Shown here in pieces: positions 5,351 through 53,573 of a DNA stretch of 54,859 nucleotides. Source of the DNA: Agarophyton chilense (lineage: Eukaryota; Rhodophyta; Florideophyceae; Gracilariales; Gracilariaceae); contig JARGXX010000124.1 of assembly GCA_030374765.1 (NCBI GenBank), positions 1 through 54,859 on the forward strand. The letters are read 5' to 3'. Every line of letters begins with the position of its first letter. Positions within the stretch are counted from its first letter, which is position 1. The translations under genes and the position numbers were made by a program. The notes beneath the pieces were generated by a model. That model did no database searches. It was not told the DNA's origin and worked only from the letters and a program-made list of their open reading frames with translations.

Positions 5351-5534
5351 CTTCTTGATTGAACCTACCGAGACTTGCTCGAGGTAGGCGGGCGCACTGG
5401 CGGGAGAAACTACCTCCGCTACCCTAAAGGATGATCCCCTGGACCCTGGTTACTCTCTCCAGGTGAGGTACGCTTTGATTACCTACCGAACTCTGCGCAC
5501 TTCAGAGTCCGGCGCTTTTAGTCCCTACGAGGCG
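5351..5534 (-). promoter_or_regulatory. Structured 5' leader block of copy A
   Basis: Minus-strand equivalent of the leader block described at 21436-21619 in copy B: several hairpins, then TTTAGGG, then CAGTGCGCCCG. It lies between the primer site and gag. A related block occurs in family 2 at 33697-33867. Function unknown. Confidence 0.6.
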
Positions 5535-10331: not shown

Positions 10332-13016
10332 ATGTCTCCCCTCCGCTTATTCACTGTCACTGCCTCTCTTTCCGCTCTTCTCGTTATCGTTCTTTCCGCT
10401 CATGTATCTCTGGAAGAATCAGAAACTTTTATACAAAATCCGAATAGGGTCGCCACCTTCATGAAGTCTGCGCCTCATTCTTCTTTGTTTGGTAAAGCTG
10501 CTGTCACTCCTGCTCCAGCAGCTGCTTTCAAACCGGGTATTCACCCTCGCATTCTTTTTGACGACCACGGATGGCTCCAGCTTTTGGAGCGTTATTCCAA
10601 CGCCGGTACATTCGACCTGCACACTTCCTGGTCGTTTTTCAACCGTCGAGCATCTCGCCACCTCGCCGACTCGAGTCCCGTTATAAGAACACTGGCTCAC
10701 ATGGAACGCAACGGCGAAACTACACTCTACACAGGAGATGAGGATCTTTCCTCTTCTTCGCAGCAAGAGCTCGATGCATTGCACCCGCTTGCAAACCATA
10801 TCATGAACATGTCCGAGGGTTATCATCAGAGCTTCTTCATTTGCGCGGTGTGGGCCAGCGTGAACGAGAAGGTTGTTCAGGAACGGGGTGAAAGAGAGTC
10901 ATTCATGACCACGACAGTTGACGACTGCGTGAAGGCGTCTGTTGCATGGGCAAAAGTGCTCCTCGCCCATCGCGCTGTCAACTGCGCCGGGAAGTGCCCA
11001 AATGGAGACGGAGCCCAACGAGCTTTTCTGTGGGACGAAGATCGGTGGTTCGAAGTGTCCAATGACTGGTTTTCCGCCGGGTCCTCATTGGCACTCACCC
11101 TCGATGCTTTGTACGATCGGTTCTCCAGCGACGAACAACGAATCGTGCTCAGCGCCCTAGCGCTGCTCATGTACAAACAGACGTCGTGGGGAACTGCTCT
11201 CCAAAGCTCCCGAAAATCTCCCAACGCCGCCCAGCACCCTCACCGCATCTTCAGCAACTGGGCCTTGTATCATGGCCACCTCTACATTACAAATCTGGTC
11301 CTTGAGGGCGAGACCAACTTCGACGCATATGCGAGCTCCGTGATGTCGTCGAGTGGCGACACAGGCTTCAACAGCGGACTCAACCACCGCTTTACCGCCC
11401 TCATCGAAGCATACATGACCCACGCTGTGTATCCCGATGGGGCGACGTTCGAAGACGCCTACACGTACTTCATCGCGCTTCGCGAAGGATCGCTGGCGCT
11501 CGTGGCCGCTGAACGCCGAGGGCTTCGCGTCATGGACACCGATCGCTTTCGCGGCCTCATCCACAACGTGGCCCAAATGATGGAGCCGTGGCAGTGCGCC
11601 CGCATTGTTGGTCACTCGTCGGGCGGCGGCATGTCGTATCCCGCGTGGGCCGCCCTGTTCAAGTACGCGTATCCTGACGGCGCACTCCCGCAAATGGTGT
11701 GGAAGCAAAGGATGGGGAAGCACTTCAAAAACAACAGCCCTTGTCGCATTCAATGGGGGCAGGTTCTCTTACACGTCACTGTTCTTGGCTTGGAGCACGG
11801 AACATCGACGTACGCTGAGTCCCCACAAGGATTGGAGAAGGAGTTTTTGCAACACTTCCCGCTCTCATACTTCAGCCCCCGTCGGGGACTGCTGATCGCC
11901 AGAGGCAGTGAAGCCGAGAACGCCATATACGTGCACTTTGATGCGCGTCCCGATGCGATATTCCCAGGGCACGACAACGCGGACCGAGGTATATTCACGC
12001 TTACCGCTTTCAAAACGGCATGGATTGACGATCACGTGTGGAACAAGAACATCGATTCCAGAAAGCACTCGCTCATGCACATCGACGGGCTCGCTCAAGA
12101 TGCGAAGGCGCCCTCCGTAGCCATGGTTGCAGTCGAAGACAATGGGCGAGAGGTCGTTGCGACGGCCAACTTGACTTACGCATACAACGTGCAGTGGGCA
12201 AGAAACTGGCCGTTTGACAAAGCCCCAATGACGGCTGTAACCGTCACCGAAGAGGACGGCTCATCGAGGCTAATCGGAAAGCGCTTCGATATGGCGGAGT
12301 ATGGACACCCGCACGATTTTGGATGGCCCGCCGACGACGACGGAGCAGATCTGGGATTCACTCGAGATCAATTCAACATGCACGGGGACCCCGATGTTGG
12401 ATTCAGAGGCATGTGGGTCTGGAAGAGCAACTATCGCGAAGCTGCCTTGGACTGGATGGTGCGCTCCGTGGTGTTGAACCGAGGCGTTGCAGGACCTGGA
12501 TTCTTCATGGTTGTTGACTCCACCCGGGTGTCCGGGGGCGCTTCGAATCACAAGTTTGAATCGTATCTGATGTTGGGTGATCTGGTGCAAGTAGACGCGG
12601 ATTCATCGGGCTGCGATGGGAACACGTGCCGCATTGTTCTGAGCGATGAAGGAATTGCCCAGGTCGACATCCACGTGATATCGACAGGACACTCAATATC
12701 ATACCGCACGGAAGAGTTCACGAGCGACAAACGGCATGAAAGGCTTATCATCCGAAGCGACAACGAGCAAGAAGAGCTCTTCTGGATCGCGTTCCACCCA
12801 CACATCGGAGAGCCGGAACGATTCTCGATGGATCAGGACCCAAACGGAACTTCAGTGACAGTGATCTACGACGATGAAGAGTTCCTTTACAGCATTGATT
12901 CCGATACACACGCAGTTGTACAGGGTGACGCGGCTGCAAAAAGCCCGCTTTCCTCTCCCAGTTCATCCCCAGAACCATCTCCGTCATACAGTGCCTCACC
13001 CAGCATTTCCGTATAA
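10332..13016 (+). CDS. Secreted heparinase II/III / dermatan-sulfate-epimerase-like protein (894 aa)
   Basis: Intronless gene starting at ATG 10332. Residues 1-24 form a signal peptide, so the product should enter the secretory pathway. Recognisable features: HPRILF at 71-76, the entry motif of the polysaccharide lyase/epimerase alpha-toroid superfamily; an alpha-helical region about 90-460 containing NWALYHGHLYI (309-319) and YPDGATFEDAYTY (367-379), resembling the catalytic YxEG-type loop; GHDNADRGIFTL (546-557), typical of the following beta-sandwich domain; then a Ser/Pro-rich tail 871-892. These families act on uronic-acid or sulfated polysaccharides. In carrageenophyte red algae, galactose-2,6-sulfurylases have been described as having this kind of domain, so carrageenan modification is a plausible but unproven role. 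It is the only intact non-transposon gene in the window. The stop codon falls inside the Ser/Pro tail; see the next entry. Codon 1 is supported by the TATA box and the absence of an earlier in-frame ATG. Confidence 0.85.
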   Translation: MSPLRLFTVTASLSALLVIVLSAHVSLEESETFIQNPNRVATFMKSAPHSSLFGKAAVTPAPAAAFKPGIHPRILFDDHGWLQLLERYSNAGTFDLHTSWSFFNRRASRHLADSSPVIRTLAHMERNGETTLYTGDEDLSSSSQQELDALHPLANHIMNMSEGYHQSFFICAVWASVNEKVVQERGERESFMTTTVDDCVKASVAWAKVLLAHRAVNCAGKCPNGDGAQRAFLWDEDRWFEVSNDWFSAGSSLALTLDALYDRFSSDEQRIVLSALALLMYKQTSWGTALQSSRKSPNAAQHPHRIFSNWALYHGHLYITNLVLEGETNFDAYASSVMSSSGDTGFNSGLNHRFTALIEAYMTHAVYPDGATFEDAYTYFIALREGSLALVAAERRGLRVMDTDRFRGLIHNVAQMMEPWQCARIVGHSSGGGMSYPAWAALFKYAYPDGALPQMVWKQRMGKHFKNNSPCRIQWGQVLLHVTVLGLEHGTSTYAESPQGLEKEFLQHFPLSYFSPRRGLLIARGSEAENAIYVHFDARPDAIFPGHDNADRGIFTLTAFKTAWIDDHVWNKNIDSRKHSLMHIDGLAQDAKAPSVAMVAVEDNGREVVATANLTYAYNVQWARNWPFDKAPMTAVTVTEEDGSSRLIGKRFDMAEYGHPHDFGWPADDDGADLGFTRDQFNMHGDPDVGFRGMWVWKSNYREAALDWMVRSVVLNRGVAGPGFFMVVDSTRVSGGASNHKFESYLMLGDLVQVDADSSGCDGNTCRIVLSDEGIAQVDIHVISTGHSISYRTEEFTSDKRHERLIIRSDNEQEELFWIAFHPHIGEPERFSMDQDPNGTSVTVIYDDEEFLYSIDSDTHAVVQGDAAAKSPLSSPSSSPEPSPSYSASPSISV

Positions 13017-14589: not shown

Positions 14590-17500
14590 AGTAACTCGCT
14601 GTGCATCCAATCATACAGTCTCTTGCATAGCGGTTCAAACTCAACTGTTTTGTATGTCTTACACTGGTCAGAACATGTCAAATTATGTTGATCAGTACAA
14701 AGCCTTGTTCAGTCAACTAAAGCGCATGGGAAAGAAAGCTGCGATAACTGAATCGCATAAAGCTCCGATTATGCTTGACTCCATTGACTCTAACAGCACG
14801 CTGGAGTCTACTGCTGCTGCTCTGCGTACAAAAGAAATTGCGGAACTCACGTGAGCATATGTAGCAACTACTCTCGTCGACGAGGACAATGCAAAGCAAG
14901 TACCTCCCAAGGCTACCGGAAGAGGCTCACGTCCTAAGACGAAGGGCCGGATCAAATTCAGAAGTAGGTCGTCTGAAATGTCTGGAAAGAATGAAATGGC
15001 AGGTGTGACTGTGGGCATAAGTACCCTTACTTCGCAAAATGACCTTATCACCTATGCAGATAGTGGTGCCACAGCACATTGCTTACACTCATCTTCTGCA
15101 TTCGTCCCTATATCAGTGCACCCATGCGAGAAGAGGACTGTGATGCTAGAGGACAATACATCGCTTGAAGCCAAACAATGCGGAGAGGTGATAATCCCGT
15201 TTGATTTGCGAACTTTCGTCTCACCAGTGTGCTGCTGCTTCCCAGTGTTAAATACAACTTAGTTTCTACGGGGTGCCTAGCAGACAAAGGTATCGAATCG
15301 AACTTCTCTCGCCACACTGTACGACTGATATTTGAATCGAATGGGTTGGAAATCGGCGTTGGACTCCGCCATGGGAACTCTGGCATGTACATGTTACCTG
15401 ACCCAATTGTGCCCGCAACCCCTGATCTTTTATTTGCGACGAAATCTACGGAGACACAACTCTGGCCCCAACGACTTGCTCACATCAACCCACGTGACCT
15501 CAGGGAGGTGCAAAATTATGATAAAGGAGTACCATCCCTGTCTGAAATGGAGGAAGTGTGCCGGACATGTCGACTTGGTAATGATCATAAGCTTTCGTTC
15601 CCAGGCCACTTTGAGCATGCAGCTGCAGTTGGCGGCATTGTGCAATCGGATAGTGTTGGTCCCCTGGATATTTCCTTTCCTGATGGGTTTCGGTCTGCAT
15701 GTATTTTTCTTGACGACCATTCTCGATATGCTTTCATTGCTTTGATAACGCATCACACTGACATTAGCGATGTACTGGACGGAGTTAAAGTAAAGTTGAA
15801 TCATCTTGGAGGTGTAGGTATCAAGAGTTTGCATTCCGACGGAGCTTAAGAGTACAAATCACTGCAACAAAACCTGGCTGAACTGCACGGCATTACCTCT
15901 TTCTCTGCTCCTTACACTCCCCGGCAAAACGCGATTGCATGACGCATCAACCGCACCATGTAGGAGGCTGCCACATCCTTACTGCTTCAGGCAAGTTTAC
16001 CCGAGTGCTTGTGGCCGTATGAATTGAAGCATGTTATCCATGTGCGTAACCGCGTGCGGCATTCCTCTGTAGACAATACCCCATACTTTATGGTCACTGG
16101 CCACCAGCCATCACTTAAACATGTGCCTGTGTTTGGATGGACGGCATTTGTGCTGAGGACTCCAAGTGGATCCAAGTTCGAGTCTCGGGCACTTGAGGGA
16201 GTGTACTTGGAGACTCTTGAGCATGGAGTTTACAAGGTACTTGTTATGGATAACGATGGTACTCCACGCATTGTTGAGTCTCGGCATGTCACTTTTGATG
16301 AATCTCAGTTTCCCGGCTCGCTGTCGGTTATTCATTACATGAAAGATGAACTAAGTTCGGACGATGATTACAACGGTGATGTCGGCTCTGATGACGCCGT
16401 GGATGATGCATCCGATGCCATCTCAATCGACGGCATTGTAGACGAAGCAGTTTTCCACAAAGAAGGTAGTTCAACACCAGCGTTGGCTCAGCTCCAGTCT
16501 GATTCTGCGGATGATGAAGAAGAAGTGGTAGGCTGCGGAAGTAATGAAGAACTGTTCCCAAATCAATCAGAAGCTCCTCACAACTCTAATACGGAACTTC
16601 GTTACCCTTCTTGCACTCGTCGTGAACCGCGAAGGTGGTTCATGGCTGGATCTGCTCAGTGTACTTTGCATATAATAGTAACGACTAGCGACGAACCCAC
16701 CCTAATAGAGGCAATGTTTGCCATCGTGGAGGAGCGTAATCTATGGCAGGCTGCAATTGATGAGGAGTTCTCATCGCTAGAGTCGAAAGGAACGTGGAAG
16801 CCTGATAACTCTCCCGTTTCTCAACCACTACCGAGTCATGTGGTCTTTCGAGTCAAACGCAATGCAAAAGGGGCAGTGAAACGTTTCAAGGCTCGAGTGG
16901 TTGCAGGTGGAAACCACCAAACGTTTGGTGAAAACAACATGGAAACCTATGCCCCAGTTGTTTCATTCACAATGGTTCGCATTTTCCTGTACCTGACGCT
17001 GTGCCTGCACATGCATGTCGCACAAATAGATGTGAAATCGGCGTTTCTCAATGGTGAACTGGAGGACGATGTGTGGATTATGTCTCCTCGAGGTATACCT
17101 GCAGTCCCTGTCTCGATGCTTCAAATTGCGCAAAGCCATCTACGGGCTGAAGCAGGCACGCTTAGCATGGCACAAGAAGCTATGTGACTACTTGAAAAGC
17201 ATAGTGTTCGAGCAGTTACCAAGTGCATCATGTGTGTTTCGCCGGCGCAATAATTACGATGAGAATGCATTTGTGTTCGTTTACGTAGATGACTTGCTGA
17301 TATTCACAACCTCCATCGAAGAACATTCTGTGATAATGCAGGAGCTGAAGTCCTTGTATGAGCTTCGTGTAGCAGAAGAGGTAAACTTGTTCCTTGGTGT
17401 TGAGTTGAAATGGACTTTGGATTTGAAAGGTCGACCTCTCTCGTTATACCTTGGCCAGTCTCTCTACACAGAGAGTTTTCTGCATCGCTTTGGGTTTGAA

Positions 17501-17966
17501 CTATCAAAACCTGCTTGCACACCCATGGTCAAGTCATTCTCCACAGGGTGGGCAGCCGAAGCAGACAAGTCGATACAAGATCTGCTTCTGTACCAGCAGA
17601 AGATTGGATCCCTGCTCTACTTGGCGCGTCGTACCCGAATGGATATATTGGCACCTGCTCTGATCTTGGCTCGCTTCCAGAAATCAGCTGCAGCCTACTG
17701 CCATAGAGCAGTGAAGCGCGTTCTACGTTATCTTCGAGGCACGTCTGGGCGTGTTGTACAGTTACAGTCTGGTAGTTTGGAATTGCAGGCGTACGTTGAC
17801 TCTGATTCCGCAGGTTACCGTACTGATCGCAAGTCCATGTCCGAATTTCTGGTGAAGCTCGGAGATGCAACATGTGCATGGGGCGCAAGGAAGCAGGCTT
17901 CAGTAGCTTTGTTTACCGGAGAGGCAGAGTATTATGCGTTGACACTTGCCCTGCGCTCACGTTGTG
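14590..17966 (+). pseudogene. Degenerate family-1-like Copia element, copy G
   Basis: 5'-truncated relative of family 1, starting within gag (match to the PSNRT/TQLF region). Stops include TGA for a Trp codon in gag (about 14851) and TAA after the integrase HSDGA motif (about 15847), plus further stops near 15940-15965. Frameshifts occur near 15210 and 17100. The CCHC zinc-knuckle region is missing between about 14945 and 14970. Integrase, reverse transcriptase (YVDD near 17286) and RNase H up to the GEAEYYAL motif remain recognisable. It then jumps at about 17949 to the final 17 bases of the LTR (TGCGCTCACGTTGTGA), so the end of RNase H and almost the whole 3' LTR were deleted. Clearly older than copies A-D and Z. 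Confidence 0.88.
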
Positions 17967-18468
17967 ATTGGCGGTACCGAAGCCTGGAACAAACAAACAA
18001 CGGTTCCTTGTAGATCTGCCAGAAACAAATGCCAGAACGCTCCCTCTACTGTCAGGGATGCTTCATCTGGAGTCCATGCTTCAAGACTGTATCCAAAGCA
18101 AGTGCTTTGCGAACATTTATTTCGTGCATGGCTATTGGCAAATACCGCTCGATACTGCCTCTCAAGAAATCATGGCAATACATACTCCAGATGAAGTTTA
18201 TGTCCCGGTTAGTATACTGCAAGGAGGAAAAGACTCTGGGCACCATTTCCAGTCTGTTACCAGTGAACACTTTGCTGAGAGGGTGAAGCGTGTGATACAG
18301 TGGTTAGACGATTTTGTGATGTACGCGAAATCCGAGGAGAACCTGCTCGAGGACACTGAAGCTTTCGTAATTGTCTGTAAGGAGGTAGGCTTCAAAATAA
18401 ACCCCGCTAAGTTTTGGTTTTTCTGCAAGGAAGCACAGTTATGCGGTAAGATCTTATCAGGAGAAGGG
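17967..18468 (+). pseudogene. Ty3/Gypsy reverse transcriptase remnant
   Basis: About 167 open codons of a Ty3/Gypsy-type reverse transcriptase: VPKPGTNKQRFLVDL start, GYWQIPLD, the active-site block VIQWLDDFVMYAK, and GFKINPAKFWFFCKEAQLCG near the end. The frame is open throughout, but both ends are cut by family-1 LTR termini (17966 and 18469). The YxDD box reads WLDD. No LTR, integrase or gag of this element is in the window. It appears to be the target into which copies G and E inserted. Confidence 0.8.
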
Positions 18469-18962
18469 TCACAACGTGAGCGCAGTTATAAAAAAGGAAA
18501 AGGAAAAGGAAATGGAGGGGAAAGGAACAGAAGAAGAGAAAAGCAAAAACAAGAAAAAACAAGTGAAGGTAGTCAGCCTTGACAATTTACTTGGATCCTC
18601 GACGACCGTTATTGACAACTATATCTACGTTGCACGCACTTCCGCCGCCGGTGCTGACTGTAGGCGGGTCACCAACGTCTCAAAGCTTACCACTGTGCGA
18701 CGAGGAGTTGCGCGCCAAAATAAATTCAAACCTAAACACATCAAATAAAAACTCAACAAATCATACAAAGTGGTGTGCCAGTGCCAACCGCCCTGCACAG
18801 CCCAGATTCGGCTGTTACGGCCAAACCCAGTATCCAGCCCCCATTCCCACATTCTCTCCAACTGCATAGCCCGTGCTCATTCAGCGCTCTCGTCCAATCA
18901 GATCGCTCCAATTGGGCCGAATCCCCAACAAGCCCCATTAAAACCAGACCACTTGTCCATAC
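18469..18962 (-). repeat. 3' LTR of old copy E, left part
   Basis: Diverged family-1 LTR starting TCACAACGTGAGCGCAG on the plus strand, with several substitutions and a longer purine-rich stretch. It is interrupted at 18962 by element F and resumes at 30650; together the parts are 678 bp. CATAC at 18958-18962 is repeated at 30645-30649. Confidence 0.88.
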
Positions 18963-20372: not shown

Positions 20373-21046
20373 TGTTGAGGTTTGGTCGACTGTGCCCCCA
20401 AGCCCTTTGGAGTGTTGGAAATAGTGGAAAACAAAAAGTGGATTTAAGCATGGGCACTTTTGGGCACCCTCCGCGGAAAAACGCATATGCGCCTCATCTC
20501 AATCTCAACGTGAAACGGCCATCTGATTGGCTACTGCAAATGCCCTCATGCAACGTGGTATGGACAAGTGGTCTGGTTCTAATGGGGCGTGTTGGGGCTT
20601 CGGCCCAAGTGGAGCGATTTGATTGGACGAGAGCGCTGAATGAGCACGGGCTATGCAGTTGGAGAGAATGTGCGAATGTGGGCTGGATACGGGGTTTGGC
20701 CGTAACAGCCGAATCTGGGCTGCGCGGGGTGGTTGGCACTGGCGCACCACTTTGGATGATTTTTTTGAGTTTTTATTTGATATGCTTCATGTTTGAAATT
20801 GTTTTGGCGCGCAACTCCTCGTCGCACAGTGGCAAGGTGTGAGACGTGGGTGACCCGCCGACGGTCAGCACCGGCGGCGGAACTGCGTGCGAGGTAGATA
20901 TAGTTTTCAATGACGGTCGCCAACGATCGAAGTAAATTGTCAAGGCTGACTACCTTCCTTTGTTTCTCTTCTTTTATTTTTCTCTTCTTCTCGTCTTTTC
21001 CCCCTCTTCTTCCTTTTCCTTTACCTAACCTGCGCTCACGTTGTGA
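20373..21046 (+). repeat. 5' LTR of copy B
   Basis: 674 bp, TGTTGAGG to GTTGTGA. Contains two reversed CCAAT boxes (CTGATTGGCT, TTGATTGGAC), the palindrome GCATATGC, and a pyrimidine-rich tract near the 3' end. Confidence 0.95.
20449..20587 (+). promoter_or_regulatory. Upstream LTR block shared with family 2
   Basis: About 140 bp collinear with family-2 LTR 32139-32276. Shared strings in order: CATGGGC, TTTTGG, GGAAAA, GCATATGCG, ATCTCAACGTGAA, GATTGGCTACTGCAAATG, CATGCAA, ACAAGTGGT. Probable U3 promoter or enhancer module; function not shown. Confidence 0.6.
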
Positions 21047-21060
21047 GGTTATGGGCCCAG
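21047..21060 (+). other. Primer-binding site of copy B
   Basis: GGTTATGGGCCCAG directly after the 5' LTR, complementary to the initiator tRNA-Met anticodon arm. Confidence 0.85.
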
Positions 21061-21089
21061 AGCGTCGACTCTTCGCAGACGTCACGCTC

Positions 21090-21193
21090 TACTAACATTT
21101 ATTTGGATTCAAGAAGATTCCCTACTGCGACAGGTGCGCGATCTACGACTAACGCTCATCTGGATTCAAGAAGTTATTTTGTTTTGCGACAGG
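21090..21193 (+). repeat. Two-unit tandem repeat in the family-1 leader
   Basis: Units of about 57 bases, each with a (T/G)ACTAAC motif (21090-21096, 21147-21153), TGGATTCAAGAAG (21104-21116, 21161-21173) and TGCGACAGG (21126-21134, 21185-21193). Present in all family-1 leaders. The ACTAAC-to-AAG layout resembles a branch point followed by a 3' splice site, but splicing is unproven. Confidence 0.6.
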
Positions 21194-21435
21194 CGTGTAC
21201 CCTGCGGACTTCCTCCTTGGTGGCGAAAACATATCGCGTTTGTTAGTACCCCCTTGGCACGAGACCGGGAAGTCTGCCAAATCCTGCTCTCCGTCCGTAG
21301 AGTACGGAGGTCGATGAATTGGGCTTGGAAGTGTAGGAGCAACCGTACTACACCGCACGACCGCGCTACTTTCCCGCAAGAGGCTAGCTTGGGTCAACTG
21401 GGGGAAGTGTATCTTGACGACACCCCTCCTTGGGA

Positions 21436-21619
21436 CGCCTCGCAGGGACTAAAAGCGCCGGACTCTGAAGTGCGCAGAGTTCGGTAGGTAATCAAAGCGT
21501 ACCTCACCTGGAGAGAGTAACCAGGGTCCAGGGGATCATCCTTTAGGGTAGCGGAGGTAGTTTCTCCCGCCAGTGCGCCCGCCTACCTCGAGCAAGTCTC
21601 GGTAGGTTCAATCAAGAAG
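21436..21619 (+). promoter_or_regulatory. Structured 5' leader RNA block (family 1)
   Basis: Noncoding block upstream of gag. By-eye stems: CCGGACTCTG with CAGAGTTCGG (21458-21484); AGGTA with TACCT; CCTGG (21507-21511) with CCAGG (21521-21525); GCGGAG (21551-21556) with CTCCCGC (21564-21570); CCTACC (21582-21587) with GGTAGG (21601-21606). Unpaired anchors TTTAGGG (21542), CAGTGCGCCCG (21571) and TTCAATC (21607) recur in family 2 in the same order, with identical spacing between the first two. Candidate packaging, dimerisation or translation signal. Confidence 0.6.
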
Positions 21620-21959
21620 TTTCAACCCGAAGTCGAGAAGTTTGTCTGTTCCGGGTACGCCTTCTGCCACTGCCCGTGAGTATACTCCAAGCGTGGGAGC
21701 ACCCGAGCTCCGCTTGTGATCGCGTACGAGACGCGTCTCGGTGAGCGTTGCAGGCTACGTCAAAAGTCTCCGCTGTCGTCCTCGCTGTCGAACGTTTGAG
21801 TTGGGATACTCCGTTCGGGCAAGCTCGGCCACGAATTCATCACTGCTCGTGGCCCTTTTCTTAAACTTCCCAAGGCATTGAGTCCCTCACTCTGGTTCCC
21901 TCTACTAATTAATTTCGTTTGGTTCCGTTCTATCTGCTTCGTGGATAACAGACTGAAAT

Positions 21960-24900
21960 ATGTCGGACACGGAAATGGAATCCGAAAGTACTACCGGGAT
22001 GAAAATCCCTCGTTTTCATGGAAGGCGTGGTGATGATTATGCCCTATGGCGCCATCGCCTTCGTGCTGCATGCCGTGTTAAAGGTGTGTGGAACGTTGTG
22101 GAATCCGATTCTGGATATTCAGCAACTACTGAAGCAACATCGGATACCGCTATTGATAGCGCTCGAGTTGTCGCCAAGCGCGAGAAGGCATGTGGAATCA
22201 TAATATGCGCCTTGGGTGATGCGCCACTTCGTGTGGTCATGGATGTCGACGACGACCCGGCGCGCATGCTCGCATTACTTGATGCACGGTATGCGTCCAA
22301 TCGTACTGTATCCAGAATTGCTGTGCAGACTCAACTATTCCGTATGGGATACAATGGTCAGAATATGTCAGGCTATGTGGACCAGTACACGGCGTTATTT
22401 GCTCAGTTAGAGCGCATGGGAAAGGATGCGGCAGTACCCGAGTCGCACAAAGCTCCCATGTTACTTGCTTCTATTGATCCCAATTGCACACTGGAGTCTA
22501 CTGCTGCAGCTCTTCGAACCAAGGATATCGCTGAGCTTACATGGGACTACGTGGCCACGACCCTCATAGATGAATACAACGCGAAACAGGTGTCTGCAAG
22601 GCCGTCTGGACGTAGTTCACGTCGCAAGAAGAAGGGCAGGAAAAAATCTGGTCGACATTCTGAATCGACTAATCGTACCCGCAGTAGTGCAAACAACGAA
22701 GATGAGGAGTCTGATGGTCACTCCGACATTGAGTCTACTGCTCGTGCACTTGCTGCCGCCTTGAGATCGTCATCATTTGATCGTTCTGGATCGAGCAATG
22801 GACATCATTGCGACTTCTGTGATCGCGATGGACACACACAAGATCGTTGCTTTATGAATCCGGACAACCCGGACAACCACTTGCCGCAGAGTATCCTCGA
22901 TAAACTGTCGCCACAACCCAAGCGAATGGGTGGCAGTAGTGGTAGAAGCGCCTCGAGCAAGTCTTCTGGAAAGTCTGGAAAAATCGAAATTGCTGGTGCA
23001 ACTGTGGAAAGGACCACTATAGTTCCGCCGAATGACCTGAGTACCTACGCAGACAGCGGTGCGACAGTACATTGCTTCCATTCTGTTTGTGCGTTCGTGC
23101 CCGGTTCACTTGAACCTTGCGACGAAAGAACAGTGATGCTTGCCGATAACACATCTGTTACATCTAAACAACGCGGAGAGGTGATCATTCCTTTGGACAA
23201 TGCGAACATACGTCTGAGTGATGCCCTACTGACCCCTGCTCTGGGATACAACTTGGTTTCAACCGGGTGTTTGGCCGACAAAGGTATTGAGTCGCTCTTC
23301 GGTCGTCACAGTGTACGTTTGACGCTAGAGTCAAATGGTTTTGAGGTGGGCATTGGTGATCGTGACAAGGTATCTCGCATGTACACACTGCCTCAACCTT
23401 TAGGGCATGCTGGTGTGGAACTCGCGCTTTCGACTAATTCTACGGAGACTCAACTGTGGCACCGACGATTGGCTCACATCAACCAACGTGATCTGCAACA
23501 TGTACACAAGTACGCAGATGGAGTGCCGCACTTGTGTGACATGGAGGAGGTATGCCGAGCATGTCGACTTGGCAAGGCTCATAAGCTTCCGTTCCCAGGT
23601 CACTTTGAACATGCATCCGCGGTTGGTGACATTGTGCACTCGGATATTGTAGGTCCTCTGGAAAAGTCTTTTCCGGAAAAGTTTCAATATGCATGTACAT
23701 TCCTCGATGATCACTCACGGTATGTGTTCCTAGGTCTGGTGATCCATCGCAGTGCTCTTAGTGATGTGTTTGTGGGTATTGCGGCAAAGTTTAAGCAGCT
23801 TGGAGGAGTGCATATCAAAAGTTTGCACTCGGACGGTGCAGAAGAATATATTGCCCTGCAAGAGAACTTGGCAGCAGAACATGGCCTCACTTCTTTCTCT
23901 GCTCCATACACCCCCGAACACAACGCTATAGCTGAGCGCATCAATCGTACCATGGTGGAAGCTGCTCGATCGTTGCTGATCCAAGCCGATCTACCAGAAT
24001 GTTTGTGGCCATATGCGCTGAAACATGTTATCTTTGTGCGTAATCGAGTGCAACATTCTACTGTTAACAACAGTCCCTACTTTCTGGTAACTGGAAATAA
24101 ACCTTTGTTGAAGCACGTGCGTGTGTTTGGATGCACTGCATTCGTGCTAAGGACTCCGCGTGGACCCAAGTTCGAGTCTCGTGCACTTGAGGGAGTGTAC
24201 TTGGAGACTCTTGAGCATGGTGTGTACAAGGTACTCGTCGTTGATAATGATGGTACTCCGCGTATTATTGAGTCACGACATGTTACTTTTGATGAATCCA
24301 AGTTCCCTGGCGCATCATCTCTTGCCAACTACATGGATGATGAAAGTGCGTCAGATGCTGACTATAGCTCTGATATGGGATTATGTGATAGCATTGATGA
24401 CGAATCGGATACCTTCTCCGTGGATAATGTTGAGGAGGAGGTGGTTCATGACGGATCCTCGCACCTGATTCCAACACTCAGGCAGTCGGAGTCAGACTCC
24501 GGCAGCAATGAAGACGATGCACAGGATTCCGAAAGTGATGACGAAAGTGCTGCTGATGACCTTGATACATCTGCCAACGCTGATACGGAACCACGCTACC
24601 CGCGGCGCACGCGCCGTCAACCTCTGAGGTGGTTCATGGCAGGGTCTGCTCACTGTACATCGCAAGTCAAAGTCACTACTAGTGATGAGCCCTCACTCAA
24701 GGAGGCAATGTCCGCCAGTGCGGAGGAGCGTACCATGTGGCAAGCAGCCGTCGATGAAGAGTTTTCATCATTGGAGTCGAAGCAAACTTGGAAACCTGAT
24801 GACTCTCCTGCTTCACAACCACTACCAACTCACGTCATACTGAAGGTAAAGCGCAATGCTGATGGGTCAGTTGAACGTTTTAAGGCTCGTGTTGTAGCCG

Positions 24901-26261
24901 GTGGAAACCACCAAACATATGGTCAGGACTACATGGAGACTTATGCACCAGTTGTTTCGTTCTCTTTGGTTCGCATATTCTTGTATCTGACGTTATGCTT
25001 GCGCATGTATGTGGTACAGGTGGATGTGAAGACTGCGTTTCTCAATGGCGAACTTGAGGAAGATGTGTGGATCATGTCACCTCGAGGTATACCTGGCGTG
25101 ACTTCACGATGCTTCAAATTGCTCAAGGCTATCTATGGACTGAAGCAAGCGCACTTGGCATGGCACAACAAACTATGCGAGGATATGAAAAGCATATGTT
25201 TTGAAGAGTTACCGAGTGCACCTTGCGTGTTTCGCCGCCAAAACGAGAGCAATGAGGATGCGTTCGTGCTAGTTTATGTGGATGACTTGCTAATATTCAC
25301 AACTTCTGCCATGGAACGTGATGCGATTTTGGAGGAGCTTAAGTCGTTTTACGAGCTGCGTGTGGCGGACGAAGTGAACTTGTACCTCGGCGTTGAATTC
25401 AAATGGACTTTAGATTCAGATGGTCGACCTGTGTCGCTGTATCTTGGTCAGTCACTGTACACGGAAAGCGTGTTGCGCCGTTTCGGGTTTCAGCGATCCA
25501 AGCCGGCATGCACCCCTATGGTAGAATCTTTTTTTACCGGGTGGACATCTGAGAAAGACAAATCCATCCAGGATACTCAGCTGTACCAGCAGATCATTGG
25601 ATCGCTTTTGTATTTGGCACTGAGAACTCGGTTGGATATATTAGCACCCGTCCTAATCTTGGCTCGTTTTCAGAAATCGCCCACGGCCTACTGTCACAAG
25701 GCGGCAAAGCGGGTTCTTCGTTACCTTCGCGGTACAACTGAACATGGTGTGCACTATCACTCTGGCATGGTGAAACTGGAGGCGTACGTTGACTCTGACT
25801 ACGCTGCGGACACGCGTGATCGCAAGTCAATGTCTGGTTTCTTAGTGAAGCTTGGCAAAGCGACATGTATGTGGGGCGCAAGAAAACAGGCTTCGGTGGC
25901 GTTGTCTACCGGCGAGGCCGAGTATTATGCTTTGACGCTTGCGTGTCAGGAGGTCATTTGGTTGAAGCGTGTGCTTAAGGAGATTGGATGGAAAGTGCAA
26001 GGTGCTGTGCCCATTCGTTCGGACAACCAGTGCGCCATTGACTGGGCAACTGGTGAACGCTGTCCGTCGGGTCGCGCTAAGCACATTGACGTTAAGTTGC
26101 ACTTCGTTCGGGAACTAGTCAAGGATTGTCACATCAATGTGACGTACGTTCCAAGTGAAGACAATGATGCGGACTTCTTAACTAAACCACTTGGCCCAGG
26201 TCTTCACAACAATAACGCGGACCGTGTTGGACTTGGCCGACCAGTCGAGGAGGAGTGTTGA
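21960..26261 (+). CDS. Copia Gag-Pol polyprotein, family 1 copy B (1433 aa)
   Basis: Full-length, uninterrupted polyprotein, nearly identical to copy A and with the same domain order (Gag, CCHC, DSG protease, HHCC/DDE integrase, YVDD reverse transcriptase, RNase H). Copy-specific residues include Thr401 and Asn493. Leu637 and Val564 agree with the majority of copies, unlike copy A. The ATG at 21960 follows a 913-base leader. The stop TGA at 26259-26261 lies in the 3' LTR. All catalytic motifs are intact, so this copy is potentially active. Confidence 0.97.
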   Translation: MSDTEMESESTTGMKIPRFHGRRGDDYALWRHRLRAACRVKGVWNVVESDSGYSATTEATSDTAIDSARVVAKREKACGIIICALGDAPLRVVMDVDDDPARMLALLDARYASNRTVSRIAVQTQLFRMGYNGQNMSGYVDQYTALFAQLERMGKDAAVPESHKAPMLLASIDPNCTLESTAAALRTKDIAELTWDYVATTLIDEYNAKQVSARPSGRSSRRKKKGRKKSGRHSESTNRTRSSANNEDEESDGHSDIESTARALAAALRSSSFDRSGSSNGHHCDFCDRDGHTQDRCFMNPDNPDNHLPQSILDKLSPQPKRMGGSSGRSASSKSSGKSGKIEIAGATVERTTIVPPNDLSTYADSGATVHCFHSVCAFVPGSLEPCDERTVMLADNTSVTSKQRGEVIIPLDNANIRLSDALLTPALGYNLVSTGCLADKGIESLFGRHSVRLTLESNGFEVGIGDRDKVSRMYTLPQPLGHAGVELALSTNSTETQLWHRRLAHINQRDLQHVHKYADGVPHLCDMEEVCRACRLGKAHKLPFPGHFEHASAVGDIVHSDIVGPLEKSFPEKFQYACTFLDDHSRYVFLGLVIHRSALSDVFVGIAAKFKQLGGVHIKSLHSDGAEEYIALQENLAAEHGLTSFSAPYTPEHNAIAERINRTMVEAARSLLIQADLPECLWPYALKHVIFVRNRVQHSTVNNSPYFLVTGNKPLLKHVRVFGCTAFVLRTPRGPKFESRALEGVYLETLEHGVYKVLVVDNDGTPRIIESRHVTFDESKFPGASSLANYMDDESASDADYSSDMGLCDSIDDESDTFSVDNVEEEVVHDGSSHLIPTLRQSESDSGSNEDDAQDSESDDESAADDLDTSANADTEPRYPRRTRRQPLRWFMAGSAHCTSQVKVTTSDEPSLKEAMSASAEERTMWQAAVDEEFSSLESKQTWKPDDSPASQPLPTHVILKVKRNADGSVERFKARVVAGGNHQTYGQDYMETYAPVVSFSLVRIFLYLTLCLRMYVVQVDVKTAFLNGELEEDVWIMSPRGIPGVTSRCFKLLKAIYGLKQAHLAWHNKLCEDMKSICFEELPSAPCVFRRQNESNEDAFVLVYVDDLLIFTTSAMERDAILEELKSFYELRVADEVNLYLGVEFKWTLDSDGRPVSLYLGQSLYTESVLRRFGFQRSKPACTPMVESFFTGWTSEKDKSIQDTQLYQQIIGSLLYLALRTRLDILAPVLILARFQKSPTAYCHKAAKRVLRYLRGTTEHGVHYHSGMVKLEAYVDSDYAADTRDRKSMSGFLVKLGKATCMWGARKQASVALSTGEAEYYALTLACQEVIWLKRVLKEIGWKVQGAVPIRSDNQCAIDWATGERCPSGRAKHIDVKLHFVRELVKDCHINVTYVPSEDNDADFLTKPLGPGLHNNNADRVGLGRPVEEEC
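26247..26255 (+). other. Polypurine tract inside the coding sequence
   Basis: GAGGAGGAG directly before the 3' LTR, also encoding the three Glu codons before the last Cys. The same arrangement occurs in copies A, D and Z. Confidence 0.7.
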
Positions 26262-26929
26262 GGTTTGGTCGACTGTGCCCCCAAGCCCTTTGGAGTGTTG
26301 GAAATAGTGGAAAACAAAAAGTGGATTTAAGCATGGGCACTTTTGGGCACCCTCCGCGGAAAAACGCATATGCGCCTCATCTCAATCTCAACGTGAAACG
26401 GCCATCTGATTGGCTACTGCAAATGCCCTCATGCAACGTGGTATGGACAAGTGGTCTGGTTCTAATGGGGCGTGTTGGGGCTTCGGCCCAAGTGGAGCGA
26501 TTTGATTGGACGAGAGCGCTGAATGAGCACGGGCTATGCAGTTGGAGAGAATGTGCGAATGTGGGCTGGATACGGGGTTTGGCCGTAACAGCCGAATCTG
26601 GGCTGCGCGGGGTGGTTGGCACTGGCGCACCACTTTGGATGATTTTTTTGAGTTTTTATTTGATATGCTTCATGTTTGAAATTGTTTTGGCGCGCAACTC
26701 CTCGTCGCACAGTGGCAAGGTGTGAGACGTGGGTGACCCGCCGACGGTCAGCACCGGCGGCGGAACTGCGTGCGAGGTAGATATAGTTTTCAATGACGGT
26801 CGCCAACGATCGAAGTAAATTGTGAAGGCTGACTACCTTCCTTTGTTTCTCTTCTTTTATTTTTCTCTTCTTCTCGTCTTTTCCCCCTCTTCTTCCTTTT
26901 CCTTTACCTAACCTGCGCTCACGTTGTGA
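26256..26929 (+). repeat. 3' LTR of copy B
   Basis: 674-bp partner of 20373-21046, followed by the CTCAT duplication. Confidence 0.95.
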
Positions 26930-30264: not shown

Positions 30265-30278
30265 CTGGGCCCATAACG
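30265..30278 (-). other. Primer-binding site of element F
   Basis: Sense strand reads CGTTATGGGCCCAG directly after the 5' LTR: the same initiator-tRNA anticodon-arm complement as the other families, with the first G changed to C. Confidence 0.75.
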
Positions 30279-32776: not shown

Positions 32777-32790
32777 GGTTATGGGCCCAG
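32777..32790 (+). other. Primer-binding site of family 2
   Basis: GGTTATGGGCCCAG directly after the LTR, identical to family 1. Confidence 0.85.
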
Positions 32791-33971
32791 CCCCGCTGAC
32801 CTCTGCCGTATAGTTCGTCTCTCACCGCTGTCCCGCACCACCGTTCACCCGTTTCGCTGTTCTATTCTCTTCGTTTCCGCCGTAGTAGCCGTTTCGTCGG
32901 GTGTGTGACCGTAGCGTGGGTTGGTGTTGGTATTTTCTTTCGGTCTTGCGTTCCTCCCTGAGGGCATTGTGGTGGTAGTGGTTGGACGTTTTTATCGTGA
33001 TTGTGTTTGGGTGCTCGTTGTTGCCCGTGTTTGTCGATCGCTATCCGTTTCGTTTGGTCTCTCCTCTTTCGTTGTTTTGTGGATCCCCGCGTCGTGTTTG
33101 CGGGTTCTGATCGGAGAAATTGAGGACCGTGTTTGTTGAAGTCTGGACCTGTAGTTCTTGGCTCAGCGTTTGTGTGTGTTTGTGTGTTTGGTCTGCATCT
33201 TTGCCTGTGCGACGAGCGGTTGATCCGAGGTACTTTGGGTGATTCCTTGTACTCGGGGACGTTAGCCTGGCGGCTTGAACCAAAGCAGGTGTACTGTCAA
33301 GCGGGTTCCCCACTGGTCCTTTTAGGGCGGATAACAGTGACGGTCGAAAGATCTGGTTGAACTTTGCGGGTGCATTTGTGGACGGGGTGCCGTGGCGCAC
33401 TGCATTTGGCTGGTTGTTTGACTTTGTGTGTGAGCCCGACCTTTGTGGTTGGGCACTTGGACTGTTGTGAACAGCATCCATAAGGAGCTTTTGATCCGCT
33501 GTACGCGGGGAGGCGACGTTTCGAAGGCTGACCTCCTTTTCAGGATCAGGCCGCGTGCGATCTTCATTGATTGCTCGTTAGAAGCGTATCTTGGTGTTGA
33601 AGTAGCTTCGGTTTGGAGGTCGCGCTAGTTCCTGGAAGAGGCCAGAGAGAGCCAACTTGGTGAATGGATATCTTCGGTCGTTAACCATCTTCTGGAAGCC
33701 TCGTAAGGAGCAACGCGCCTTCTCCTTGTGACGTGGGAGGAGGTAGACTGCAGAAAACCGTTATCTACCCAGAAGAGCTCTGGGGGCCAGGGGTCCGACC
33801 TTTAGGGACGCGGGTATAGGAAGCCCTGCCAGTGCGCCCGCAGACTATTGTCTGTTCAATCTTGAAGAATTATTTGTTGTTTTTACTTTGTTGTTGTTGT
33901 CTGTTGTTGTTGTTAACTTGTCTATTGCTGTCAAGCCATCTCTCTCGGCCTCTTGTGACACTTTGCACAAC
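32791..33971 (+). promoter_or_regulatory. Family-2 5' leader with structured block
   Basis: About 1.2-kb noncoding leader. The part at 33697-33867 mirrors the family-1 block. Stems: CCTTCTCC (33718) with GGAGGAGG (33736); GTAGA with TCTAC; CCAGA with TCTGG; GCGGG (33810) with CCTGC (33825); CAGAC with GTCTG (33841-33854). Anchors: TTTAGGG (33801), CAGTGCGCCCG (33830), TTCAATC (33855). A GTCTTG/GTTGTT-rich stretch lies at 33876-33916 just before gag. Confidence 0.6.
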
Positions 33972-35633
33972 ATGGATTCGTTCAGTGGGGTGAAAATCGA
34001 AAAGCTGGTTGAGGATAACTTCCACGTATGGAAGCAGAAGATTGAGCTGCTGCTTGCACTCAAGGACCTCGACGGCCACCTCGACTCTGTTAGACCCACT
34101 GACGAAGATGAGCTGTCGACTTGGAAAAAGAAAGATGCCAAGGCCAGAGCTATTATTGGTCTCACACTCAGTGATGAGCATTTAGATCATGTGCGGGACG
34201 CCGACAACGCTGCCGATATGTGGAAAGCCATTTGCGATGTGTTCCAACGCAAGACTCTGCTCAACAAAATCAACGCCCGACGGTCCTTCTACTCTGCCAA
34301 GATGCGTGATGATGAGAAGATGCTACAGTTCATCAACCGTGTACGTCATCTGGCATCAGACCTGAAGTGTATGGACGTTGTTGTTGAGGAGGAGGACATC
34401 GCTATGGCCATCCTATGCGGACTTCCGGAAAGATTCGAGCACCTCATCGTCGCAATTGATACCACGATTGGCGATCGTCAACTCACTCTAGAGTTTGTGA
34501 AGAGTCGTCTGCTGCAAGAAGAGCAGCGAATGAACGATCGTGCCAAGGAGGAGCCTGGTGGAAGTGAGGCAGCTTTGGTTGGCAGGCAGTCGCGATGGAA
34601 GAACATCGAGTGTCATTATTGTCATAAGAAGGGTCATATCCAGAGAAACTGTTTCAAGAAGCAACGTGATGGGGCTAACAGGAATCAGGTCGGTGCTGCT
34701 CACCCAACTGTCAATACTGAGCTCAGCGATGAGCGAGGTACGGGTGGCAACGACTCTGACTTTGTATGTCTCATTGCTACCGGCTCTGATAAAGCCACGA
34801 AGACTGACTGGATTGTTGACTCTGGGGCTACTGCCCACATGACTTTTGACGAATCCATGTTCCAAACATATGATAGTAAGGTGTCTTCTGGCGTTAGCAT
34901 CGGTAATGATTCCAAACTAGAGTCTGTTGGTCGCGGTAGTGTGGAGCTTGATTTGATTGTGGAAGGGTCAAAACGAAGGTGCCAGCTGAAGCATGTTGTT
35001 TATGTACCGAATTTAAGATACCATTTGCTTTCTGTATCGGCGAATTGTGATGTGGGGTGCAAAGTAGTGTTTGAAAAAGAGAAGGTATGTGTATACAAGG
35101 GGTCAAAAGTGGTTGCCTTGGGGCGCCGCGTCAAAGGCCTATACTACCTTTGCACTGCTGCACACCATTGTACAGATGTAAACAGCGCACTTGTGTCGGA
35201 CTTGTCACTATGGCATGCTCGAATGGCTCATGTGAATGTGGATGGTATCAAGCATATGGCTCGAAACAAGGTTGTGTCAGGGCTCAATGTAGACGTTGCG
35301 CAGGATTCAGATGTGTGTGGCTCATGTATAGTAGGAAAAGCAACCCGTGCTACGACTCTCAAGCAAGGGGGGGAACGAGCAAAACACGTACTGGAACTTG
35401 TTCACTCCGATGTGTCAGGTCCAGTAAGTGTGAAATCCTTGGGAGGCTCGCACTACTTCGTCACATTCATCGATGATCACAGTCGTTTCTGCTTCTTCTA
35501 CATGCTCAAAACTAAGGATGAGGTGTTCCAGATGTTTCTAAGGTGGCTCAAGTTTGTTCAAAACCAAACCGGCAGACAAATGAAAACCATTACCGCACGG
35601 GAGTGTGTGCTCAAAGCATTGCGCACTGACAAC
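33972..35633 (+). pseudogene. Family-2 Copia Gag-Pol, first 554 codons
   Basis: ATG 33972; the frame is also open upstream but without an ATG. Gag about 1-200 (UBN2-type); CCHC C214-C227 (CHYCHKKGHIQRNC); protease DSG 283-285; integrase zinc residues H415, H420, C449, C452; integrase D480 (VHSDVSGP) and D553 (LRTDN). Uninterrupted until the 19-kb cluster cuts it one codon after D553. It resumes in phase at 54642. No damage apart from the insertion, so the element was intact, or nearly so, when hit. Confidence 0.93.
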
Positions 35634-36308
35634 TCACAACGTGAGCGCAGGTTAGGTAAAGGAAAAGGAAGAAGAGGGGGAAAAGACGAGAAGAAGAGAA
35701 AAATAAAAGAAGAGAAACAAAGGAAGGTAGTCAGCCTTGACAATTTACTTCGATCGTTGGCGACCGTCATTGAAAACTATATCTACCTCGCACGCAGTTC
35801 CGCCGCCGGTGCTGACCGTCGGCGGGTCACCCACGTCTCACACCTTGCCACTGTGCGACGAGGAGTTGCGCGCCAAAACAATTTCAAACATGAAGCATAT
35901 CAAATAAAAACTCAAAAAAAATCATCCAAAGTGGTGCGCCAGTGCCAACCACCCCGCGCAGCCCAGATTCGGCTGTTACGGCCAAACCCCGTATCCAGCC
36001 CACATTCGCACATTCTCTCCAACTGCATAGCCCGTGCTCATTCAGCGCTCTCGTCCAATCAAATCGCTCCACTTGGGCCGAAGCCCCAACACGCCCCATT
36101 AGAACCAGACCACTTGTCCATACCACGTTGCATGAGGGCATTTGCAGTAGCCAATCAGATGGCCGTTTCACGTTGAGATTGAGATGAGGCGCATATGCGT
36201 TTTTCCGCGGAGGGTGCCCAAAAGTGCCCATGCTTAAATCCACTTTTTGTTTTCCACTATTTCCAACACTCCAAAGGGCTTGGGGGCACAGTCGACCAAA
36301 CCTCAACA
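35634..36308 (-). repeat. LTR a (left outer LTR of cluster)
   Basis: 675 bp, with the same eight-A run as the LTR at 5924-6598. Left neighbour is the ACAAC duplication. Confidence 0.95.
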
Positions 36309-38078: not shown

Positions 38079-38262
38079 CGCCTCGTAGGGACTAAAAGCG
38101 CCGGACTCTGAAGTGCGCAGAGTTCGGTAGGTAATCAAAGCGTACCTCACCTGGAGAGAGTAACCAGGGTCCAGGGGATCATCCTTTAGGGTAGCGGAGG
38201 TAGTTTCTCCCGCCAGTGCGCCCGCCTACCTCGAGCAAGTCTCGGTAGGTTCAATCAAGAAG
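38079..38262 (+). promoter_or_regulatory. Structured 5' leader block of segment C
   Basis: Near-identical copy of the block at 21436-21619. Here the shared CCTCGTAGGGA string is intact, while copy B reads CCTCGCAGGGA. Confidence 0.6.
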
Positions 38263-42196: not shown

Positions 42197-42870
42197 TCAC
42201 AACGTGAGCGCAGGTTAGGTAAAGGAAAAGGAAGAAGACGGGGAAAAGACGAGAAGAAGAGAAAAATAAAAGAAGAGAAACAAAGGAAGGTAGTCAGCCT
42301 TGACAATTTACTTCGATCGTTGGCGACCGTCATTGAAAACTATATCTACCTCGCACGCAGTTCCGCCGCCGGTGCTGACCGTCGGCGGGTCACCCACGTC
42401 TCACACCTTGCCACTGTGCGACGAGGAGTTGCGCGCCAAAACAATTTCAAACATGAAGCATATCAAATAAAAACTCAAAAAAATCATCCAAAGTGGTGCG
42501 CCAGTGCCAACCACCCCGCGCAGCCCAGATTCGGCTGTTACGGCCAAACCCCGTATCCAGCCCACATTCGCACATTCTCTCCAACTGCATAGCCCGTGCT
42601 CATTCAGCGCTCTCGTCCAATCAAATCGCTCCACTTGGGCCGAAGCCCCAACACGCCCCATTAGAACCAGACCACTTGTCCATACCACGTTGCATGAGGG
42701 CATTTGCAGTAGCCAATCAGATGGCCGTTTCACGTTGAGATTGAGATGAGGCGCATATGCGTTTTTCCGCGGAGGGTGCCCAAAAGTGCCCATGCTTAAA
42801 TCCACTTTTTGTTTTCCACTATTTCCAACACTCCAAAGGGCTTGGGGGCACAGTCGACCAAACCTCAACA
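42197..42870 (-). repeat. LTR c
   Basis: 674-bp minus-strand LTR; 3' LTR of D. Private change GAAGACGGGG in place of GAAGAGGGGG. Left neighbour CTGAG is the complement of the CTCAG beside LTR b. Confidence 0.95.
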
Positions 42871-47166: not shown

Positions 47167-47506
47167 ATTTCAGTCTGTTATCCACGAAGCAGATAGAACG
47201 GAACCAAACGAAATTAATTAGTAGAGGGAAGCAGAGTGAGGGACTCAATGCCTTGGGAAGTTTAAGAAAAGGGCCACGAGCAGTGATGAATTCGTGGCCG
47301 AGCTTGTCCGAACGGAGTATCCCAACTCAAACGTTCGACAGCGAGGACGACAGCGGAGACTTTTGACGTAGCCTGCAACGCTCACCGAGACGCGTCTCGT
47401 ACGCGATCACAAGCGGAGCTCGGGTGCTCCCACGCTTGGAGTATACTCACGGGCAGTGGCAGAAGGCGTACCCGGAACAGACAAACTTCTCGACTTCGGG
47501 TTGAAA

Positions 47507-47690
47507 CTTCTTGATTGAACCTACCGAGACTTGCTCGAGGTAGGCGGGCGCACTGGCGGGAGAAACTACCTCCGCTACCCTAAAGGATGATCCCCTGGAC
47601 CCTGGTTACTCTCTCCAGGTGAGGTACGCTTTGATTACCTACCGAACTCTGCGCACTTCAGAGTCCGGCGCTTTTAGTCCCTACGAGGCG
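47507..47690 (-). promoter_or_regulatory. Structured 5' leader block of segment D
   Basis: Same multi-hairpin block as 21436-21619. The leader also has a private C-to-T change near 47306 (CTTGTCCGAA). Confidence 0.6.
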
Positions 47691-48065
47691 TCCCAAGGAG
47701 GGGTGTCGTCAAGATACACTTCCCCCAGTTGACCCAAGCTAGCCTCTTGCGGGAAAGTAGCGCGGTCGTGCGGTGTAGTACGGTTGCTCCTACACTTCCA
47801 AGCCCAATTCATCGACCTCCGTACTCTACGGACGGAGAGCAGGATTTGGCAGACTTCCCGGTCTCGTGCCAAGGGGGTACTAACAAACGCGATATGTTTT
47901 CGCCACCAAGGAGGAAGTCCGCAGGGTACACGCCTGTCGCAAAACAAAATAACTTCTTGAATCCAGATGAGCGTTAGTCGTAGATCGCGCACCTGTCGCA
48001 GTAGGGAATCTTCTTGAATCCAAATAAATGTTAGTAGAGCGTGACGTCTGCGAAGAGTCGACGCT

Positions 48066-48079
48066 CTGGGCCCATAACC
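48066..48079 (-). other. Primer-binding site of segment D
   Basis: Sense GGTTATGGGCCCAG adjoining LTR d. Confidence 0.85.
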
Positions 48080-53049: not shown

Positions 53050-53389
53050 ATTTCAGTCTGTTATCCACGAAGCAGATAGAACGGAACCAAACGAAATTAA
53101 TTAGTAGAGGGAAGCAGAGTGAGGGACTCAATGCCTTGGGAAGTTTAAGAAAAGGGCCACGAGCAGTGATGAATTCGTGGCCGAGCTTGCCCGAACGGAG
53201 TATCCCAACTCAAACGTTCGACAGCGAGGACGACAGCGGAGACTTTTGACGTAGCCTGCAACGCTCACCGAGACGCGTCTCGTACGCGATCACAAGCGGA
53301 GCTCGGGTGCTCCCACGCTTGGAGTATACTCACGGGCAGTGGCAGAAGGCGTACCCGGAACAGACAAACTTCTCGACTTCGGGTTGAAA

Positions 53390-53573
53390 CTTCTTGATTG
53401 AACCTACCGAGACTTGCTCGAGGTAGGCGGGCGCACTGGCGGGAGAAACTACCTCCGCTACCCTAAAGGATGATCCCCTGGACCCTGGTTACTCTCTCCA
53501 GGTGAGGTACGCTTTGATTACCTACCGAACTCTGCGCACTTCAGAGTCCGGCGCTTTTAGTCCCTACGAGGCG
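53390..53573 (-). promoter_or_regulatory. Structured 5' leader block of segment Z
   Basis: Same block as 21436-21619, between the primer site and gag. Confidence 0.6.

Follow-up and report, generated by a model that had tools for sequence, protein, structure and literature searches.

A covarying leader RNA common to two unrelated Copia retrotransposon lineages in the red alga Agarophyton chilense

Here, we show that two unrelated lineages of Copia LTR retrotransposons in A. chilense, F1 and F2, have in common a homologous structured leader block of ~250 nt, which lies between the primer-binding site and gag. The block is a covarying leader RNA unknown to Rfam that is present in some hundreds of places and has been exchanged between unrelated lineages. 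To our knowledge, little is known of Copia leader RNAs; a shared covarying leader RNA offers a way to test whether packaging or translation signals are common to different retrotransposon families.

The window, i.e., the whole stretch of 54,859 nt that was analyzed, is one contig (C124) of a genome of 79.8 Mb in 135 contigs, and Copia LTR retrotransposons occupy much of it. F1 has the Copia domain order according to Pfam (gag, rve at residues 555-652 and RVT_2 at residues 943-1188), and residues 214-1322 of F2 match Copia pol; the F2 reading frame is intact at copy L087 (1341 aa). The primer site is presumably complementary to the anticodon arm of the initiator tRNA. The relevant features of the window are as follows.

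20373..21046, + strand: F1 5' LTR, limits inferred from the repeat; repeated at 26256-26929 and elsewhere
21049..21060, + strand: F1 primer-binding site TTATGGGCCCAG; the AUG inside it opens a 14-codon ORF
21362..21613, + strand: F1 structured block, from leader alignment and consensus fold
21483-21613, + strand: F1 block core, first copy
5357..5487, - strand: F1 block core, second copy
38126..38256, + strand: F1 block core, third copy
47513..47643, - strand: F1 block core, fourth copy
53396..53526, - strand: F1 block core, fifth copy
21960..26261, + strand: F1 gag-pol, 1433 aa
26908-30195, - strand: F3, with an F1/F2-type primer site at 30265-30276 (-) and an ATG ~70 nt beyond it
32779..32790, + strand: F2 primer-binding site; the AUG inside it opens a 10-codon ORF
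33621..33861, + strand: F2 structured block, from leader alignment and consensus fold
33742-33861, + strand: F2 block core, single copy in the window
33972..36176, + strand: F2 gag with the beginning of pol, a truncated frame of 734 aa counted from the ATG

F1 copies are spaced 5883 bp apart, and this spacing recurs in a head-to-tail Copia array at 42197-54636. Elsewhere in the genome, G000:C6:31977-49794 is a head-to-tail array of F2 with a 5939-bp spacing as judged from motif spacing. At 14600-18962, the window also contains a 5'-truncated, F1d-like Copia copy that is 73-76% identical to F1 and has no leader block. The ORF at 10332-13016 (894 aa) encodes a protein with 76% identity to a Gracilaria domingensis protein; a copy of CAGTGCGCCCG at 11592 lies inside this ORF and was dismissed as a chance match.

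The Smith-Waterman score between the F1 and F2 leaders is 381, whereas 300 dinucleotide shuffles give 124 ± 18 and at most 195 (z 14.1); the leader of F1b, for which one place was found (the truncated copy C2:744649-744929), aligns with those of F2 and F1 with z of 15.8 and 51.8, respectively, against 300 shuffles. An ordered leader common to both families, as proposed in an earlier note on this DNA, is thus found where that note placed it, in five F1 copies and one F2 copy in the window. The extent of the leader had been set too short. The likeness of F1 to F2 extends upstream to CGCGCTA..GAGGCYAG..GTCAACT, placing the limits of the block at ~21362-21613 in F1 and 33621-33861 in F2, so that it starts ~75 nt earlier than described. 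The block begins ~300 nt from the primer site in F1 and ~830 nt from it in F2, and ends 346 nt and 110 nt, respectively, before gag.

Genome-wide, CAGTGCGCCCG has 347 matches compared to 12 for the reversed pattern; the two-part pattern TTAGGG..GC..GCCAGTGCGCC has 263 compared to 0, and AGGCYAG..GTCAACT..GAA, ~190 nt further upstream, has 247 compared to 0. A covariance model of the core, a step suggested in the earlier note, gave 84 matches in 81 sources when the window and 92 loci were searched. All 78 matches outside the window, which are not distinct copies because the loci overlap and which lie in loci picked by motif or gag likeness, overlap a leader match. In 62 of these 78, gag follows directly 3' of the leader, and four run off the stretch. 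The other 12 have no gag detectable by BLASTN, and comprise four in a local array of LTR and leader, three views of the truncated F1b copy and five F1d matches in which gag is too diverged for BLASTN. An F2 variant whose GTCAACT box has two G-to-C substitutions was seen at four among 100 listed places (G000:C27:474375, 495554, 499305 and 503056).

The helices of the block were identified with RNAalifold on 13 copies and on the three lineages F1, F1b and F2. In F1 coordinates, they are as follows.

21362-21367 with 21572-21577, + strand: helix P1
21372-21375 with 21445-21448 and 21380-21384 with 21437-21441 (GAGGC/GCCTC), with inner pairs too, + strand: helix P2
21458..21484, + strand: hairpin H1
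21486..21504, + strand: hairpin H2
21507..21525, + strand: hairpin H3, loop purine-rich
21528..21547, + strand: hairpin LH, CCAGGGGW-NNN-WCCTTTAGG
21551..21570, + strand: hairpin H4
21571..21581, + strand: CAGTGCGCCCG, the string with 347 genome matches
21581..21607, + strand: hairpin H5, then TTCAATC to 21613

Helices P2, H1, H2, H3, LH, H4 and H5, perhaps closed by P1, are kept by compensatory change. The 16 bases and the TTTAGGG that had been described as a separate linker and string form a single hairpin, LH, the top pair of which is A-U in F1 and U-A in F2. The conserved strings are in part helix arms: GCCTC pairs with the upstream GAGGC, and AGTGCG can pair with the upstream CGCGCT to form P1. 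For P1, sequence variation in the arms is slight and pair probabilities in six single sequences are 0.00-0.24, which makes it the least certain helix. The top of H1, judged by eye, has TGCGCA in F1 and F1b, where it lies partly within the stem, and ACGT in F2, palindromic tetramers being common by chance. In F1b, letters of H1 are changed on both arms with the fold retained. Changes in the palindromic loop among F1 copies match the expectation for CpG decay and were left uncounted.

It is well supported that the block is a structurally selected RNA, in a comparison carried by only three deep lineages (F1, F1b and F2). The energy of the consensus fold had a z of −6.6 for 13 copies and −5.4 for the three lineages against 200 column shuffles, with 0 of 200 shuffles as low in either case; a second alignment gave −4.8 and −5.0, and the core only −3.8 and −2.5, and in none of the six tests did more than 1 of 200 shuffles reach as low a value. 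Lack of covariation had been named beforehand as the result that would speak against a functional RNA; across the six tests, the covariation term was at least as high as in 98-100% of 200 column shuffles (at least 99% for the 13-sequence alignment), while some count measures gave no excess. In the RNAalifold structure of 13 copies, 17 of 49 pairs have two-sided change with pairing kept. Between F1 and the F2 copy F2_87, of 64 pairs, 35 are unchanged, 5 are changed on one side, and 15 are changed on both sides yet paired; the other 9 lack pairing in at least one of the two sequences, five of them in H1, H2 and H3, helices in which F2 seems to be misregistered in alignment A5. Stems that change while pairing is kept, as read from the window in the earlier note, are thus borne out across these three deep lineages. 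In the 13-copy alignment, 95.8% of cells are paired compared to 42-51% when the structure is slid, and there are 17 two-sided pairs compared to 2-5, a comparison that favors the structure since it was derived from that alignment; among 28 distinct core rows, the corresponding values are 88.6% and 31-51%. Pairs with two-sided change in the core alignment of 28 distinct rows showed no excess (5 compared to a shuffle mean of 4.8), and further pair types were no more frequent than in shuffles (15 versus 14.8 in the core; 38 versus 38.9 for 13 copies). Taken one at a time, four pieces from the two leaders in the window were no more stable when folded than their shuffles (z −0.57 to +0.46). When single hairpins were shuffled in F1, F1b and F2, H1 had P ≤0.023 and H5 P ≤0.020, while 8 of 12 tests for H2, H3, LH and H4 were not below P 0.025.

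The proteins of F1 and F2 differ, as had been noted: their pol sequences are 31% identical over 1194 aa, the same value as between F1 and plant Copia (P0241, P0253), and their Gags show no detectable likeness on the N-terminal side of the zinc knuckle, the BLASTP match beginning only at F1 residue 284. In a quick 42-row tree (LG+G4), in which F3 forms a long branch, F2 lies beside Chondrus with plant and insect Copia on its side and F1 opposite. Forcing F1, F1d, F2 and P0045 together in this quick tree costs 1202 log units (p-AU 4e-56), and forcing wider clades costs 466 log units (p-AU 4e-8). By their pol sequences, then, F1 and F2 belong to different Copia lineages, and very probably do not share the block by descent; because the tree rejects a clade of F1 and F2, the leader block appears to have passed between lineages. 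A Copia ancestor of F1 and F2 that had the block, with loss elsewhere, would account for the identical primer site and order of parts in the two families; it is the least probable of the explanations considered here, given that F2 groups away from F1 and that the block aligns at 57-63% identity between families whose pol is 31% identical.

Recent recombination of the leader had been raised as an alternative explanation of the likeness. Exchange between lineages is indeed indicated, but it does not look recent, and compensatory change followed it. In alignment A1, the block is 57% identical between F1 and F2, 57% between F1b and F2 and 86% between F1 and F1b (57, 55 and 80% in A5; 63, 62 and 91% in the core alignment A3). 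Because F1 and F1b are equally distant from F2 in A1, the exchange looks old; apparently it preceded the split of F1 and F1b and was followed by divergence with the shape kept. In three further cases, likeness is higher in the leader than in gag, with identities of 88-93% in the leader and ~72% in gag for F1d, 95-96% and 78% for F1e, and 96% and 88% for the F2 copy L030. This is as expected from repeated exchange between co-packaged RNAs; another reading of the pattern is strong selection across the whole leader. In F1d (L058, L060), the leader is 92-93% identical to F1 over window positions 21021-21860, and the likeness has an edge at 21861, where it drops from 58 to 46-47 of 60 letters. Such tracts would suit a block that has no function and is a mere passenger of leader recombination. 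This explanation is very improbable and largely refuted, since it leaves compensatory change and the block-centered conservation between F1 and F1b and between F1 and F2 unexplained: of 120 letters in the 3' half of the block, F1b keeps 112, compared to 13-33 of 60 in adjoining leader windows.

Patterns that exclude F1 and F2, and a search with F1b DNA, found no fourth lineage. Pattern CAGTGCGCCCGD had 14 matches (8 F2 copies and 6 unrelated), ..TTCAATCS had 6 (F1b and F1-type copies) and TTAGGGS.. had 0 compared to 1 in the control. Among the 40 scored of 153 candidates, the F1b query returned the one F1b place and 39 at 80-81%. A pattern scan of IMG/VR had one match (L089), which was rejected since it lies between or in phage-like ORFs and has no covariance-model match. 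F3 has no covariance-model match to the block, and neither do 3 of 154 other primer-site places that were read for 843-860 nt each, a length in which an F2-like block at 842 nt would be missed. Of these three, L091 has a Copia gag from nt 109, L090 a weak match that is not gag and L092 none. Absence of the block from short-leader families is therefore based on two cases, F3 and L091.

Both leaders are long, and AUG, unlike CAT, GTA and TGA, is nearly absent from them (21061-21959, ~0.9 kb, in F1; 32791-33971, ~1.2 kb, in F2). The ORF that starts at the AUG of the primer site (ATGGGCCCAG) has 10 codons in all 19 distinct F2 leaders; among 30 distinct F1-type leaders, it has 14 codons in 29 and 33 codons in one. 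Gag lies ~900 nt (F1) or 1,160-1,190 nt (F2) further downstream. By eye, the primer-site AUG of F3 opens a 4-codon ORF, and that of L090 (base 3 on) a frame of ~60 codons that starts MGP and is not a recognizable Copia gag. After the primer-site ORF, F2 leaders have 0-3 AUGs (none in 12 of 19) and 9-13 CATs, and F1-type leaders have one AUG in 23 of 30 and 2-4 in 7 of 30. From base composition, 16.5 AUGs are expected in F2 (L087) and 12.6 in F1, compared to 0 and 1 observed; a first-order Markov model of the window copies predicts 12.6 in F2 and 6.2 in F1, compared to 1 in each (P <1 in 2000 and P 0.012, respectively). No AUG occurs in the 842 nt that precede the F2 block, compared to 8.8 expected, and 0 of 2000 simulations were as low. 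Among the separate parts, only this one is significant (the part upstream of the block in F1, 1 versus 2.9, P 0.22; the part from the block to gag, P 0.07 and 0.26). The AUG-poor leader fits scanning or re-initiation, by which ribosomes may reach gag after the primer-site ORF of 10-14 codons. In F1, an ORF of 57 codons starts at 21314 and terminates within the block, and F2 has no comparable ORF; a shunt like that of CaMV was rejected, since no short ORF adjoins the block in both families.

What does the block do? The earlier note listed a packaging or dimerization signal, internal ribosome entry and nuclear export. Our best guess, which we hold tentatively, is that the block is a portable packaging and dimerization element resembling retroviral psi, because of its place, its architecture and the precedent of BARE. 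As a cis-acting element of the genomic RNA, of psi or dimer-linkage type, it would expose loops (the purine-rich loop of H3 and the palindrome-bearing H1) to nucleocapsid or a second RNA, and RNAs with the block would be dimerized and packaged, across families too. The block probably spread by recombination between RNAs of different families, the simplest route being a template switch while two RNAs in a single particle are reverse-transcribed. Against a packaging role, the Gags are unlike, so that a single RNA signal for both would need loose recognition or a host factor; F3 and L091 do without the block despite having the same primer site and gag soon after; and no dispersed derivative reduced to LTR and leader came to light. 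The sole gag-less array (C1:1036353-1040630, L009-L012), in which 1,393-bp units of LTR plus leader lie beside full copies, was rejected as such a derivative because it is a local tandem.

Use of one block with unlike Gags would also point to a host partner and, thus, to translation or export. The block could recruit host factors or ribosomes, or permit shunting or re-initiation, for the distant gag. Host machinery would suit any Gag and explain an exchange between unrelated families in which the block is alike and the Gags differ; moreover, the short primer-site ORF lies far from gag in F1 and F2, and F3 and L091, in which gag comes soon after the primer site, have no block. We nevertheless consider a translation element, although the main rival to packaging, rather unlikely. 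Ribosomes seem to pass the AUG-free 842 nt upstream of the F2 block, making entry at the block unneeded and disfavoring an obligatory IRES; the distance from block to gag is unequal in the two families; and there is no match to an Rfam IRES. A host protein might instead bind the block for nuclear export, stability or localization. Constitutive transport elements occur in some retroelements, and this function, too, would suit a block common to unrelated elements with unlike Gags; such elements, however, are usually near the 3' end, the block is in the leader, and there is no sign of splicing or export, which makes this function improbable. Returning to the element as a whole, it is possible, if somewhat less so than a packaging role as such, that a portable RNA module moves between unrelated LTR retrotransposon lineages and works with unlike Gags, in that way allowing families to share or steal one packaging or translation system.

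The view in the earlier note that no element like this has been described agrees with Rfam and with a literature search that reached few subscription papers. In Rfam 15, the window has no match at the gathering score, the F1 leader none at E up to 5, and the F2 leader two matches, both on the minus strand, that score far below the gathering cutoff (20 versus 37 and 17 versus 95 bits). The literature search found no such Copia leader element, with most subscription papers outside its reach. In retroviral psi/DIS leaders, the AUG-poor, unspliced stretch from primer site to gag has several hairpins, the loops of which are purine-rich or palindromic. The block resembles them in its multiple hairpins, its AUG-poor leader, its position between primer site and gag, and its purine-rich and putatively palindromic loops. 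For packaging of MMTV RNA, a purine loop and the primer site matter, according to PMC8096270. The block differs from psi/DIS in that it has no Rfam match, lies ~300 or 830 nt from the primer site, occurs in red-algal Copia elements and has a putative packaging role.

BARE1 and BARE2 of barley are close relatives that share signals. Like F1 and F2, they are Copia elements, and BARE2 is parasitic; according to PMC3735527, BARE2 cannot make Gag and is said to keep its dimerization and packaging signals and to be packaged. Unlike in BARE, the seaweed block is common to unrelated Copia lineages and shows compensatory change. The shunt leaders of caulimoviruses and tungroviruses are long and structured, and contain short ORFs as well as a primer site for Met-tRNA (PMC5902531). 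They have several upstream ORFs and one large stem. The F1 and F2 leaders, by contrast, are AUG-poor and form a row of small helices, and there is no short ORF that adjoins the block in F1 and F2 alike. Finally, template switching of LTR retrotransposons exchanges parts between co-expressed copies (PMC5668417 and PMC1950507). The cases in these two papers seem to be within one family or to be complex insertions, whereas in the seaweed, a leader block is found across two lineages of the superfamily.
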